A DNA stretch of 39,954 nucleotides. Source: Marmoricola sp. (GTDB lineage: Bacteria; Actinomycetota; Actinomycetes; Propionibacteriales; Nocardioidaceae). Both the position numbers and the translations under genes were made by a program. Of this stretch, positions 7,759-15,401 are shown one piece after another; the first letter of the stretch is position 1, and every line of letters starts with the position of its first letter. Location: positions 1-39,954 of the forward strand of contig JAOPXD010000054.1 of the NCBI GenBank assembly GCA_025965315.1, read 5' to 3'. The notes under the pieces are model-generated. The model had not been told where the DNA came from, did not search any database, and saw only the letters and a program-made list of their open reading frames with translations.

Positions 7759-8658
7759 CTAGGAAGCGTCTCCGCCGGCGGGCGGTTCGGTGTGCAGAGC
7801 GTGGCCGCCGAACTGGTTGCGCATCGCGGCGACCGCCTTCATCGCCGGGCTGTCGTCCTGGCGCGAGACGAAGCGTGCGTACAGCGCCGCGGTGATCGCC
7901 GGAGTGGCGACCGCGTTCTCGATACCGGCCTCGACGGTCCAGCGCCCTTCACCGGAATCGTCCGCGTAGCCGCGGATGCCTTCGAGGCCGGGCTTCTCGT
8001 CCAGGGCTGCGACCAGGAGGTCGAGGAGCCAGGAACGGATGACCGTCCCTTCCTTCCAGGAGCGGAAGACGTCGGTGACGTTCTCGACCATGTCGACGGT
8101 CTCGAGCAGCTCCCAGCCCTCGGCGTACGACTGCATGATCGCGTACTCGATGCCGTTGTGAACCATCTTCGAGAAGTGCCCGGCGCCGACCTTGCCCGCG
8201 TGCACCCAGCCGAAGTCGCCCTCGGGCTTGAGGGTGTCGAAGACCGGTTGCACCTTCGCGACGTCCTCGGCCTTGCCGCCGGCCATCAGCGCGTAGCCGT
8301 TCTCCAGGCCCCAGACACCACCGGAAACGCCGCAGTCGACGAACCCGATGCCCTTGCCCGCGAGCATCTCGGCGTGCCGGATGTCCTCGGTCCACCGGGA
8401 GTTGCCGCCGTCGACGATCAGGTCGCCCTCGCCGAGCAGTCCGGCGAGCTCGTTCACGGTGTCATCGGTGGGTCCGCCGGCCGGCACCATCACCCAGACC
8501 ACCTTCGGACTGGGGAGCTTCTCGACCATGTCGGCCAGGCTCGTCGAGTCGGAGAGGTCCTGGTTGCGGTCGTAGCCCACGACGGTGTGGCCACCGTTGC
8601 GCAGCCGGGTGCGCATGTTGCCACCCATCTTGCCGAGTCCGACGAGTCCGAGGTGCAT
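7759..8658 (-). CDS. gnd: 6-phosphogluconate dehydrogenase, decarboxylating (short GndA type)
   Basis: The enzyme converts 6-phosphogluconate to ribulose 5-phosphate and CO2 in the pentose phosphate pathway. At 299 residues it belongs to the short class (about 300 residues, often NAD-dependent) rather than the 470-residue NADP type. The Rossmann motif [12 protein letters not shown] is at residues 4-15. The substrate motif [22 protein letters not shown] and the helix [16 protein letters not shown], with the catalytic Lys and substrate-contacting His-Asn, follow. Aspartate in VVGYDRN at the end of the second strand fits NAD preference; that is inference. GGAAGGA precedes the ATG, and dnaN ends 24 bases upstream. 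Location between dnaN and recF is common in Streptomyces and Nocardioides relatives. Confidence 0.95.
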
Positions 8659-8682: not shown

Positions 8683-9846
8683 TCAGGAGAGCAGGCGGCG
8701 GGGCATCAAGAGGTACTTGAAGCTGGAGTCCGTCGCGCTGCCGGCCGCATCGAGCGAGTCGACTCCGGAGAGGACGACGGGCTTCGACGAGGTCGTGAAT
8801 GCGAGCTCGACGAACGGTGACTCCAGGGCGGAGAGTCCGTCGAGCAGGAACTGCGGGTTGAATCCAGTGGTGAGGTCGTCGCCGGTGATGACTGCCTCGA
8901 TCGACTCGCTCGCCATCGCCTCCTCGCCCGAACCTGCGTCGAGGGTCAGCACCCCGTCGGCGAAGGCGAGCTGGACGGCGGTGTTGCGCTCGGCGACCAG
9001 GGCGACCCGCTTGACCGCGTCGATCAGCACCGAGCGGTCCACCCGGGCCAGGGTGAGGTGCTCGTTCGGGAACAGCGAGCGGACCTTGGGGAACTCACCG
9101 TCGAGCAGCCGGGTCGTCGTACGACGGATGCCGCCACCGGCGGAGCCCTCGAAACCGATGATGCCCTCGCCGATGCCCGAGGTGGACAGGGCGATCGAGA
9201 TCTCGGCGCCACCGGTCAGGGACTTGGCAGTGTCGGCCAGCACCTTGGCCGGGACCAGCGCTGCCGCGGACAGGTCCGGCGTCCCGGGATCCCACTCGAG
9301 CTCGCGCTGGGAGAGCCGGAACCGGTCGGTGGCGAGCATCGAGATCGACGAGCCGTCGAGCTCGATCCGGACCCCGGTCAGCACCGGCAGCATGTCGTCG
9401 CGACCGGCGGCGGTGACGGCCTGGCCGACGGCGTGGGCGAAGAGCTCGCTGCGGACCTTGCCGCGGGACTCGGGCATCGGCGGGAGCGACGGGTAGTCCT
9501 CGACCGGCATCGTCTGCAGGCTGAAGCGCGCCGAACCGCAGGTCAGCGTGACCTTGGCGCCCTCGATCGACATCTCCACCGGCTTGTTCGGCAGGCTGCG
9601 GCAGATGTCGGCGAGCAGACGACCGGAGACCAGGGCGCGACCCTCGATCGACACGTCGGCGTTGAGCGTCGCCCGGGCCGAGGTCTCGTAGTCGAACGTG
9701 GAGAGCTGGAGGCCGTCGGCTCCATCGATGTTGCCGGCTTCGATGAGGAGCCCGGCGAGGACAGGTGCACTGGGACGCAAGGGGAGAGCGCGGGCCGTCC
9801 ATGCGACGGCATCGGCGAGGACATCGCGCTCGACGCGGAACTTCAC
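8683..9846 (-). CDS. dnaN: DNA polymerase III beta sliding clamp
   Basis: DnaN forms the ring-shaped processivity clamp. The 387-residue protein begins MKFRVERDVLADAVAWTARA, matching the usual N-terminus, and contains the three clamp folds. It ends with a short tail (LMPRRLLS) after the final domain; the classical C-terminus is LMPMR. The GTG at 9846 was chosen because AGGAGG lies seven bases upstream and because protein similarity begins there; the frame stays open to 9930 without similarity. The gene directly borders the origin and heads the gnd-recF-dciA run. Confidence 0.98.
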   Translation of the reverse strand: MKFRVERDVLADAVAWTARALPLRPSAPVLAGLLIEAGNIDGADGLQLSTFDYETSARATLNADVSIEGRALVSGRLLADICRSLPNKPVEMSIEGAKVTLTCGSARFSLQTMPVEDYPSLPPMPESRGKVRSELFAHAVGQAVTAAGRDDMLPVLTGVRIELDGSSISMLATDRFRLSQRELEWDPGTPDLSAAALVPAKVLADTAKSLTGGAEISIALSTSGIGEGIIGFEGSAGGGIRRTTTRLLDGEFPKVRSLFPNEHLTLARVDRSVLIDAVKRVALVAERNTAVQLAFADGVLTLDAGSGEEAMASESIEAVITGDDLTTGFNPQFLLDGLSALESPFVELAFTTSSKPVVLSGVDSLDAAGSATDSSFKYLLMPRRLLS

Positions 9847-9997
9847 GGGTGTTGCCTCCTGCGGGTCTGCCTCAAGGACTGGGGATTCATGCCTTGGGAC
9901 TGGGCATCCTGCCACGCTCACGCGGTGCACGGGGAGTTGTCCCCAGCGAGGGTGGTTTCCGGTTGTTGTACGACGAAGGATCTATCTGGAAATTCAG

Positions 9998-10031
9998 TAG
10001 TAGTAGTAGGGGCGGTGGACACTGTGGAGAA
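9998..10031 (+). other. Putative basal unwinding module: DnaA-trios plus two DnaA boxes
   Basis: Four consecutive TAG triplets (9998-10009) are followed by a GC spacer GGGC and two abutting DnaA-box-like nonamers, 10014-10022 and 10023-10031. Read 3' to 5', this gives boxes, GC-rich spacer, then GAT repeats, the order described for the Bacillus subtilis basal unwinding system in which DnaA loads onto one strand. The flanking sequence ATCTATCTGGAAATTC is AT-rich for this genome and would be the first region to melt. Confidence 0.6.
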
Positions 10032-10146
10032 CTGATGTAACTGCAGGTCACCGACACTTTTCGGATCCCCAGGCCCTGTGGACGGACCTGGGAGGAACTA
10101 CAGCTTCCTGTGGTCTTGGAACCTTGCTGTGCGTCGAGGTGTCCGC

Positions 10147-10155
10147 TTGTCCACA
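10147..10155 (+). promoter_or_regulatory. Perfect DnaA box in oriC
   Basis: TTGTCCACA exactly matches the high-GC actinobacterial DnaA box. It lies 61 bases from the end of dnaA. Confidence 0.85.
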
Positions 10156-10215
10156 GGTCCTCCCGGGTGACTCCACGACAATTCGTGTGCCCACCCACAG
10201 GCGAACCCGCGGCCG

Positions 10216-11715
10216 CTAGGGCTGCTTGGCCTGCTGCTTGATCCGCATGGTGAGCTCGTTGACCGTCTTGTACGTCGTCTGGCGCTCGGCCAGGTCCTTG
10301 CGGATCCGGCGCTCGGCGTTCATCACCGTGGTGTGGTCACGACCGCCGAACTGCTGGCCGATCTTCGGCAGCGAGAGATCGGTGAGCTCACGGCACAGGT
10401 ACATCGCGATCTGACGAGCCGTCACCAGGGCACGGGTCCGGCTCGGTCCGCACAGGTCCTCGATGCTGAACGAGTGGTACGACGCGGTCTGGGCGATGAT
10501 CAGGCCGGCGGTGACCTGCGGCTCTCCGCCTTCGGGGATGAGGTCCTTGAGCACGATCTCGGCCAGGGTCATGTCGACTTCCTGGTGGTTGATGCTCGCG
10601 AAGGCGGTGACCCGGATCAAGGCACCCTCGAGCTCGCGGATGTTCGTCTGGATCCGGCTGGCGATGAACTCGAGCACGTCGGCCGGCGCGTGCAGCCGGT
10701 CGGCAGCGGCCTTCTTGCGGAGGATCGCGATCCTGGTCTCCAGGTCGGGCGGCTGTACGTCGGTCAGCAGGCCCCACTCGAAACGGTTGCGCAGCCGGTC
10801 CTCGAGCTGGGTGAGGCGCTTCGGCGGCCGGTCCGAGCTGATCACGATCTGCTTGTTCGCGTTGTGCAGCGTGTTGAACGAGTGGAAGAACTCTTCCTGC
10901 GTCTGCTGCTTGCCCTCGAGGAACAGGATGTCGTCGATCAGCAGGACGTCGACGTCGCGGTACCGGCGCTGGAGCTCGGAGGTGTTCGCGTCCTTGATCG
11001 CGTTGATGACGTCGTTCGTGAACGCCTCGGACGAGACGTACCGGATCTTGGCGCCGGTGTAGAGGCTGCGGACGTAGTGGCCGATCGCGTGCAGCAGGTG
11101 CGTCTTGCCCAGGCCCGAGTCGCCGTAGACGACCAACGGGTTGTAGGCCTTGCCCGGTGCTTCGGCGACAGCGACGGCGGCTGCGTGCGCGAACCGGTTC
11201 GAGGATCCGATGACGAAGGTCTCGAACGTGTACCGCGGGTTGAGCGGACTGTCCGGGATGCCAGTGGACAGGGAATTACCGCCCTGGATATTTGTCGACA
11301 AAGAACCTTGTGGATTGAACGATGAAAGGTTTTGCGGTGCGTAGCTGAGCGTCCCGGACGGCGTGAAGGGTGCCTCGGCGGCCGGCGGCGGCGGAGCGGT
11401 CTGGGTGAGCGTGGGCACATCGGCGATCAGCCCGCCCAGGGGGAAGTCGCCCGGGGACAGGGTCTCGTCGACGCTGACCGCGATCCGGATCGGCCTGTTC
11501 AGGCTGTCGCTGAGGGCGTCCTCGAGCCGGGTTCGTAGTCGTCCCTCGAGCTGGGTGCGGGTGAACTCGTTCGGTACGGCGATGACGGCCGTCGACTCGG
11601 CGAGCATCACCGGCTTGCTCGAGGCGAGCCAGACGCGCTGGTTCGGGGCGAGGCTGTCCAGGATGGCGGGCCACAACGCGTCAAGCTCTCGACCGTTGCC
11701 TGCAGGTGACTCCAC
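10216..11715 (-). CDS. dnaA: Chromosomal replication initiator DnaA
   Basis: DnaA binds origin boxes, opens the duplex and recruits the helicase. With GTG at 11715 it has 499 residues. Domain I aligns from [11 protein letters not shown] with the N-terminal region of actinobacterial DnaA, followed by a linker rich in Asn, Ser and Pro. Domain III has Walker [16 protein letters not shown], Walker [13 protein letters not shown] and the segment [20 protein letters not shown]. Domain IV has the DNA-binding motif [21 protein letters not shown] lies 12 bases before the GTG, a little far; GTG at 11805 is an in-frame alternative but lacks a well-spaced binding site. The gene is transcribed toward the origin. 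Confidence 0.98.
11291..11302. repeat. 12-bp perfect palindrome TTTGTCGACAAA inside dnaA
   Basis: TTTGTCGACAAA is a perfect palindrome in the AT-rich part of dnaA encoding the domain II linker. Its core is one mismatch from the DnaA box TTGTCCACA. The 11-mer TGTCGACAAAG found here (11293-11303) recurs at 12517-12527 and 17390-17400. Confidence 0.5.
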
Positions 11716-11809
11716 GTGCGCTTCGCGCTCCCCTCGTTCGGACGTCCTGCGCGCCTGGCTGGCGTTGGTGGTTGCGTCTGGGTTGATCTGGTTGGTCCGA
11801 TCCACACCT

Positions 11810-11818
11810 TTGTCCACA
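11810..11818 (+). promoter_or_regulatory. Perfect DnaA box in the dnaA leader
   Basis: TTGTCCACA lies downstream of the candidate dnaA promoter, between it and the start codon, where bound DnaA could block transcription. Confidence 0.75.
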
Positions 11819-11890
11819 GGTTGTGCAGGGTGCGCGAGGCGCACTTCCGTGCTCGAGCTGCAGCGTGTACACGAGTGGGCCGGTGAGCGG

Positions 11891-11920
11891 ACGCTAACAA
11901 CACAGGGCACGTTGGATCAA
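11891..11920 (-). promoter_or_regulatory. dnaA promoter
   Basis: Minus strand: -35 hexamer TTGATC (11920-11915), an 18-base spacer, and -10 hexamer TAGCGT (11896-11891), a good match to actinobacterial housekeeping promoters. The leader to the GTG start is about 170 bases. Confidence 0.6.
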
Positions 11921-11924
11921 CCGG

Positions 11925-11933
11925 TTGTCCACA
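11925..11933 (+). promoter_or_regulatory. Perfect DnaA box beside the dnaA -35 hexamer
   Basis: TTGTCCACA ends five bases from the -35 hexamer of the candidate dnaA promoter. This placement suits autoregulation by DnaA. Confidence 0.75.
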
Positions 11934-12031
11934 GGTTCGAGTGATTCGTCGGCGTGTCGCCATGATTATGGTGAGCTGAGGGTGCAGGCTCGTTTCTTTT
12001 GGCCTCCCGTGGTCGTTCGGTGCGGTTCGAA

Positions 12032-12061
12032 TTGACCGTGAACCGGCCTCACACGTACCGT
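12032..12061 (+). promoter_or_regulatory. rpmH-rnpA promoter
   Basis: -35 hexamer TTGACC (12032-12037), an 18-base spacer and -10 hexamer TACCGT (12056-12061) on the plus strand. This is the best housekeeping-type promoter seen upstream of rpmH. Confidence 0.6.
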
Positions 12062-12186
12062 TGGCAGGTCGAAACCGGTTCGACCGGTGCCGCATGTCCA
12101 CGACCGGGCCCTGCCAGGGTCCATCGCGCGGGCAGGCGGTGCCAGTTGTGACTCTGACTGGCGGCGTTCTGCGTCGTGCGACCCGG

Positions 12187-12195
12187 TGTGGACAC
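12187..12195 (-). promoter_or_regulatory. Near-perfect DnaA box in the rpmH leader
   Basis: TGTGGACAC is one mismatch from the reverse DnaA box TGTGGACAA. It lies about 60 bases before rpmH. Confidence 0.5.
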
Positions 12196-12253
12196 GTCCC
12201 ACAGAGCCGTTCCCAACACAGGCATTCCCCAACAGAAGCGCGTGGAGATTTTC

Positions 12254-12391
12254 ATGAGCAAGCGTACTTACCAGCCGAACAACCGCCGTCGTCACAAGGT
12301 GCACGGGTTCCGTCTTCGGATGCGTACCCGCGCCGGGCGCGCGATCCTGTCCAGCCGTCGCCGCAAGGGCCGCAACAGCCTCGCCGTCTGA
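12254..12391 (+). CDS. rpmH: 50S ribosomal protein L34
   Basis: This 45-residue, strongly basic protein matches L34 throughout: [19 protein letters not shown] at the N-terminus and [19 protein letters not shown] thereafter. L34 binds 23S rRNA in the large subunit. The ATG at 12254 has GGAG seven bases upstream; the open frame runs further upstream to 12176 but that part is unrelated to L34. The gene directly precedes rnpA, the near-universal arrangement next to dnaA. Confidence 0.98.
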
Positions 12392-12397
12392 GGCCGC

Positions 12398-12748
12398 TTG
12401 CTGGATGTGCTGTCCTCAAGCAATCGCCTGACCGCTGCCGACGAGTTCCGGCAGACGGTCCGTCGGGGTCGCCGATCTGGCGGCCCGCTGATGGTCGTAC
12501 ATCTAGTGGTGCCGAATGTCGACAAAGCGACAAGTGAACCCTCTCGTGTGGGGTTCGTCGTCGCCAAGTCGGTCGGCCCGGCCGTGACGCGGAATCGCGT
12601 GAAGCGACGCCTACGCCATCTGATGCGGGAGCGGATCGACCAGCTCCCGGGCGGGAGCATGCTCGTCGTACGGGCGCTCCCGGATTCAGCCAGTGCCTCC
12701 TTCGGGGATCTTGCCGGGGCTCTCGATCGTTGTCTGGGTCGGGCATGA
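12398..12748 (+). CDS. rnpA: Ribonuclease P protein component
   Basis: RnpA binds the RNase P RNA and helps it cut 5' leaders from pre-tRNAs. The protein of 116 residues (from TTG at 12398) has the signature RNR motif in [15 protein letters not shown], the N-terminal NRLTAADEF(R) segment and the central [12 protein letters not shown] at 12398 has GAGG four bases upstream. GTG at 12407 gives MLSSSNRL, closer to the usual N-terminus, so the true start may be three codons later. It ends just before yidD. Confidence 0.96.
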
Positions 12749-12776
12749 GCACGGCCACGGGGACGGAGGGTCAGGG

Positions 12777-13052
12777 ATGAAGTGGATCCTGATCGCCCTC
12801 CTCAGGGCCTACCGCTTCGCCATCAGCCCGCTCTACGGTCAGGTGTGCCGTTACCACCCGACCTGTTCGGCGTACGCGCTCGAGGCCGTGACGGTCCACG
12901 GGGCGTTCAAGGGAAGCTGGCTCGCTGCACGCCGGGTCGGCCGGTGCCACCCCTGGGCCGCCGGCGGGTACGACCCGGTGCCGTCCAAGCCTTCCCAGCC
13001 TCAATCTTCCCAGCAGCTGCTGGGCCATGTGAACACGACTCAAGGAGTCTGA
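12777..13052 (+). CDS. yidD: Membrane protein insertion efficiency factor YidD
   Basis: This 91-residue protein has the YidD (formerly DUF37) core: an amphipathic N-terminus [18 protein letters not shown], then [15 protein letters not shown] and [18 protein letters not shown] with the conserved cysteines. YidD assists YidC-dependent insertion of membrane proteins. GGAGGG seven bases before the ATG supports this start, although the frame is open upstream. The C-terminal 20 residues are Gln- and Ser-rich and variable. yidC starts directly at its stop codon. Confidence 0.96.
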
Positions 13053-15371: not shown

Positions 15372-15401
15372 ATATCCACAGATCAGCCCTAGTTATCCAC
15401 A
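15372..15401 (+). promoter_or_regulatory. Pair of DnaA boxes upstream of parA
   Basis: TTATCCACA (15393-15401) is identical to the E. coli consensus DnaA box, and ATATCCACA (15372-15380) differs by one base. They share orientation, with starts 21 bases apart, about two helical turns, so bound DnaA molecules would lie on the same face. Confidence 0.65.

Follow-up and report, generated by a model that had tools for sequence, protein, structure and literature searches.

Whether an actinobacterial chromosomal origin carries the basal unwinding system (BUS) published for B. subtilis (PMC6669920, PMC8287927, PMC10721633), and in what form its DnaA-trios are kept in this phylum, are questions raised by a 39,954-nucleotide stretch of a Marmoricola sp. 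contig (JAOPXD010000054.1; the whole stretch is hereafter called the window). The contig belongs to a 4.07-Mb assembly of 217 contigs, and by DnaN its nearest named relatives belong to Nocardioides/Marmoricola, namely the MAG Marmoricola sp. RYN_197 (96% identity) and N. marmoriginsengisoli (94%). Gene names in the neighbourhood were assigned by reading translations, which gave the reverse-strand order parB, parA, rsmG, jag, yidC, dnaA, gap, dnaN, gnd, recF, DUF721, gyrB, gyrA, where the gnd-like (6-phosphogluconate dehydrogenase) gene between recF and dnaN occupies 7759–8658 on the minus strand. The gap between dnaA and dnaN is the usual site of actinobacterial oriC. Here it is 369 bp long and contains the trio block, which accordingly lies in a putative chromosomal origin beside dnaA (gyrA-gyrB-recF-dnaN-dnaA-yidC-parAB context). 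A plus-strand open reading frame at 9058–10035, antisense to dnaN, was considered as a coding explanation and judged spurious, and an Rfam search of 9000–13000 returned no RNA family. Feature coordinates are collected in Table 1.

Table 1. Features of the dnaA–dnaN gap and its flanking genes (positions in the window).
Feature	Position	Strand	Basis or remark
dnaN (sliding clamp)	8683–9846	minus	GTG start 9846
Inverted DnaA-box-like TTGTCCCCA	9937–9945	plus	49 bp beyond trio 5
Predicted first melting stretch (DUE), least stable and most AT-rich	9976–10009		stability and AT calculation
Five DnaA-trios (3'-GAT four times, then GAC, away from the boxes)	9995–10009	plus	sequence; register kept in relatives
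GC spacer GGGC, box 2 to trio 1	10010–10013		sequence
Weak DnaA box GTGTCCACC (plus strand GGTGGACAC)	10014–10022	minus	sequence; counterpart of B. subtilis box 7
Strong DnaA box TTCTCCACA (plus strand TGTGGAGAA)	10023–10031	minus	counterpart of B. subtilis box 6
Conserved TGACCTGC element	10043–10050	minus	T 22 bp upstream of the strong-box TCCAC core
Weak DnaA box CCGTCCACA	10077–10085	minus	
Perfect DnaA box TTGTCCACA	10147–10155	plus	opposite orientation to the tandem pair
dnaA	10216–11715	minus	GTG start ~11715, inferred

A first-pass annotation had described four TAG triplets, a short GC spacer and two abutting DnaA-box-like nonamers in this gap, arranged in the order of the Bacillus BUS. 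All of these elements are present and the proposed order was supported, as every BUS property that can be tested at sequence level was found, including order, polarity, spacer and DnaA residues. The plus strand at 9998–10009 reads TAGTAGTAGTAG, i.e. TAG four times, with a fifth in-register triplet, CAG (3'-GAC-5'), at 9995–9997. The two nonamers abut exactly and are co-oriented, the upstream one (TTCTCCACA, followed by GTGTCCACC) being nearer to consensus, and 13 bp separate the better box (10023) from the first trio (10009), so that five trios stand where the BUS definition asks for at least three of the form 3'-NAN-5' within 16 bp of a DnaA box. The trio strand has its 3' end at the boxes (plus strand 5'-TAGTAGTAGTAG-GGGC-boxes-3'), the polarity of a filament running 3' to 5' away from them. 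Read from dnaA towards dnaN, the block is TGACCTGC-AGTTACATCAG-TTCTCCACA-GTGTCCACC-GCCC-CTA-CTA-CTA-CTA-CTG-AATTT. Outside the gap, two further perfect TTGTCCACA boxes were observed upstream of dnaA at 11810–11818 and 11925–11933 (plus strand), with a possible role in autoregulation or as the second half of a bipartite origin, and TTATCCACA occurs at 15393–15401 (plus strand) between rsmG and parA.

Chance occurrence of this arrangement was assessed by dinucleotide shuffling of the 369-bp gap, repeated 4000 times. Four consecutive CTA triplets arose in none of them and three in only 2, and not even two CTA triplets were ever obtained within 16 bp of a DnaA box (0/4000). The loose published rule of three 3'-NAN-5' was satisfied by 2.6% of shuffled gaps when up to one box mismatch was allowed and by 28% when up to two were allowed; this rule is therefore weak on its own, and the strength of the case rests on the GAT run, the tandem boxes and their conservation. 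The 4.07-Mb assembly contains just 7 occurrences of TAGTAGTAG, and a run of four only at the trio block. By nearest-neighbour energy the least stable 30-mer of 9601–10500 was 9980–10009, comprising the TAG run and its AT-rich neighbour, and this 30-mer was also the most AT-rich of the gap, sharing that rank with those starting at the neighbouring positions 9976 and 9979. The earlier suggestion that the element lies next to the most AT-rich stretch was thus correct, and the two actually overlap.

This coincidence with the least stable stretch would also be expected if the TAG run were a mere AT-rich DUE edge or a chance triplet repeat (microsatellite) with the boxes alone functional, and the exact run of four TAG triplets was absent from all relatives in one set examined, which fits the same explanation. 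Relatives differ from the window, however, by point changes in register (CTA to CGA) and not by repeat number. A microsatellite was rejected on the basis of these in-register changes and of the lack of a second run of four TAG triplets in the window's own genome.

Conservation within the genus was measured over 22 genomes, in which the mean major-base frequency was 0.875 for 9995–10031 compared with 0.626 for all gap positions outside 9995–10050; one other short block, 9901–9915, was equally conserved. Among 80 named Nocardioides-group loci the block was present in 79 at a loose score and in 74 at a strict score. A typical relative reads TTNTCCACA-GNATCCACC-GSCC-CTA-CTA-CTA-CGA-CTA, in which the triplet register is kept and some central adenines of the trio strand are replaced by cytosine (CGA on the dnaA to dnaN strand). 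Later trios decay in the wider Nocardioides group, with CTC, CCT and others common at trios 3–5. The first-pass annotation had tied its claim to conservation of the TAG run among relatives; the block and its triplet register are indeed conserved, but the exact run is not.

Regions upstream of dnaN from 141 sequences, including the window, and representing 73 families were then scored for the phylum with a block profile trained on 55 clear cases, with 1410 shuffled sequences as a control. Shuffled sequences never scored above 6.3 bits, while 113 of the 141 sequences and 53 of the 73 actinobacterial families reached at least 10 bits, and 32 of these 53 families had contributed no training sequence. 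Given that the block ranks with the best-conserved parts of the gap in the genus and recurs in 53 of the 73 families, the proposal is not overturned on grounds of non-conservation. At 20 bits or more, 29 of the 35 families in the window's class were retained compared with only 8 of 38 families from other classes, which makes the window's own class the one for which the case is firmest. One sequence (L225, genome G437) carries the entire unwinding block in reverse orientation with respect to dnaA–dnaN, scoring 28.3 bits on the minus strand at about 413–465 of the last 860 bases.

The triplet code was derived in a manner that avoided circularity, by using only the box cores (TCCAC-n4-TCCAC) to choose sequences, with each of 27 families represented once. 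A core-to-core spacing of 9 occurred in 68 sequences of these 27 families, and no other spacing between 5 and 15 in more than 16. Downstream of the cores, and beyond a spacer often C-rich among the 27 family representatives, there are five triplets with C or T at base 1, T or G in the middle and A at the third base, the trio-strand equivalent being 3'-[G/A]-[A/C]-T-5'. Over positions 19–33 of this set the third base was A in 109 of 135 cases and the middle base T or G (A or C on the trio strand) in 121 of 135; in 20000 within-sequence permutations the maxima were 62 and 76, respectively, and none reached the observed values. In the 91 profile-selected sequences a trio-strand middle A or C was found in 90 at trio 1, a count from a set partly selected for CTA there, and in 88 at trio 2 (jointly 178/182), with 69, 73 and 78 of 91 at trios 3, 4 and 5. 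The strict central adenine (3'-NAN-5') seen in the window does not hold across Actinobacteria, where A and C are about equally frequent at trio 2. The conserved unit of the phylum is five triplets of 3'-R-[A/C]-T-5' and not TAG four times. Even where the origin is GC-rich, the third A and middle T or G stay at a constant spacing to the boxes, with a third base that does not track GC content; taken with the in-register changes, this makes a mere DUE edge or chance repeat very unlikely.

Cytosine can replace the central trio adenine in B. subtilis, as both bases bear the amine read by Asn187 (2023; PMC10721633), and the same structure-based study suggested that other DnaA proteins might use a central cytosine. 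The actinobacterial A/C rule is what an amino-group reading through Asn187, a residue conserved here, would predict. Asn187, Ile190, Glu228 and Arg264 were invariant in the sampled actinobacterial DnaA proteins, with Ile, Leu or Val at position 193, and the window DnaA has equivalents of Asn187, Ile190, Ile193, Glu228 and Arg264, the arginine finger. All base-capture residues of the BUS are thus conserved save Arg202, which contacts guanine O6 in B. subtilis and is replaced by Gln in the window DnaA and by Q, K, R or H elsewhere in Actinobacteria. From these alignments we infer that the relaxed triplet code is functional, the middle A or C presumably serving through the amino group that the Asn187-equivalent residue would contact.

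Two additional parts accompany the boxes and triplets. In the core-only set TGACCTG at the 22-bp offset had a mean match of 4.4/7 compared with 1.2 to 2.4 at 19 other offsets, and many actinobacterial families keep TGACCTGC at a constant spacing. Among 394 genomes of the class, 53 carry a single copy of the exact composite TGACCTG-n15-TCCAC-n4-TCCAC, and none carries its reversed control. Our literature search of open-licence papers found no description of TGACCTGC or TGACCTG at oriC; the motif may be an extra low-affinity DnaA contact or a site for another factor. Its TGACC could also pass as a promoter -35 and the block lies upstream of dnaN, which would allow the block to be mainly regulatory (a dnaN promoter or repressor site) instead of an unwinding element. 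This we hold to be extremely improbable, as no -10-like hexamer lies 17–18 bp from TGACC, on which ground the -35 assignment was rejected, the conserved GTGGCAGGAT at 9906–9915 is a likelier dnaN -10 region, and regulation leaves the triplet periodicity unexplained. GTGGCAGGAT (minus strand), located 60 bp upstream of dnaN, itself ranks with the best-conserved short blocks of the gap and probably represents the -10 region of the dnaN promoter.

On the far side of the trios, 28 of 89 sequences have an inverted box of the form TGKGGANAA 46–50 bp past the last trio and one more has it at 36 bp, and none has it in the other orientation. It may, speculatively, bound the melted region or serve in loading of a second helicase. 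We favour, with rather modest confidence, the interpretation that all of these parts form a single fixed actinobacterial block (TGACCTG, 22 bp, two boxes in 9-bp register, five 3'-R-[A/C]-T-5' triplets, about 48 bp and an inverted box), in which the relaxed code would be a natural confirmation of middle-base amino reading and TGACCTG an undescribed origin element. If this is true, TGACCTG would either be contacted additionally by DnaA or be bound by a further actinobacterial initiation factor.

Overall, the trio block is very probably the basal unwinding system of oriC, as judged from the order and spacing of its parts, their conservation, the triplet register with its A/C rule and the conserved DnaA residues. 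DnaA binding, filament growth, first melting and helicase loading at the block are predictions of this reading. Domain IV of DnaA would bind the strong box (10023–10031) and then the abutting weak box (10014–10022), and the pair would position the AAA+ domains over the adjacent duplex. An ATP-DnaA filament could then extend on the plus strand from 10009 to 9995, one protomer per triplet, each capturing the first two bases of its trio and together opening the AT-rich 9976–10009 for helicase loading. The site of first melting and the choice of the plus strand by DnaA, both put forward by the first-pass annotation, stand as predictions.

The main conflict with the BUS reading comes from M. tuberculosis, also an actinobacterial dnaA–dnaN origin, where oriC was opened by DnaA and ATP and permanganate mapping placed the opening at -500 to -518 from dnaN (PMC2607554). 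In comparison, a BUS-like block lies near -308 in one probable mycobacterium (L141), a different genome from the mapped M. tuberculosis. A primer from that study had no match in 198, and then in 393, Mycobacterium genomes, and no other actinobacterial permanganate map was found. The M. tuberculosis opening would suit an E. coli-like process in which bending loops DnaA back onto single-stranded DNA, melting occurs at another AT-rich site and the trio block is a relic. Phylum-wide conservation and a fixed box–triplet spacing are not expected of a relic, and we give this possibility slightly less credence than the already very small share allowed to a DUE edge or repeat. The BUS reading directs experiments in Streptomyces or mycobacterial laboratory models to a precisely defined site.

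The window holds a clear example of the already described DnaA-trio element. Box cores are 8 bp apart in B. subtilis but 9 bp apart in the window and in 27 families; Actinobacteria also have five triplets with a middle A or C throughout the phylum, with TGACCTG placed 22 bp before the boxes and an inverted box some 48 bp past the trios as additions. The window otherwise resembles the B. subtilis incC BUS (DnaA-box#6/7 and DnaA-trios; PMC6669920, PMC10721633) in its two co-oriented boxes with the strong one distal, its trio run beyond the boxes, its chromosomal origin beside dnaA and its conserved key DnaA residues. Of 2070 bacterial origins, 85% were predicted to contain a BUS (PMC8287927), and DnaA-trio annotation is built into Ori-Finder (PMC10225481). 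The window satisfies the published search rule (three or more 3'-NAN-5' no further than 16 bp from a box), and its 13 bp fits the published spacer peak of 10–13 bp. As this rule demands a central A, many of the actinobacterial runs in the present alignments (CTA TGA CGA ...) would be missed or read in another register, and the A/C rule supplies a corrected search rule for actinobacterial origins. Only one report found in the literature on DnaA-trios and Actinobacteria concerned an actinobacterial origin, that of Kocuria rhizophila Noodlococcus (PMC12500396), which likewise notes DnaA-trio motifs in a dnaA–dnaN gap; the portions of that report available to us treat a single genome, without comparative analysis, upstream motif or A/C rule. 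Our alignments suggest that Actinobacteria use the central cytosine in origin after origin, and what appears to be new is this actinobacterial version of the system, with its 9-bp box register, relaxed five-triplet 3'-R[A/C]T-5' code, fixed TGACCTG and inverted box.
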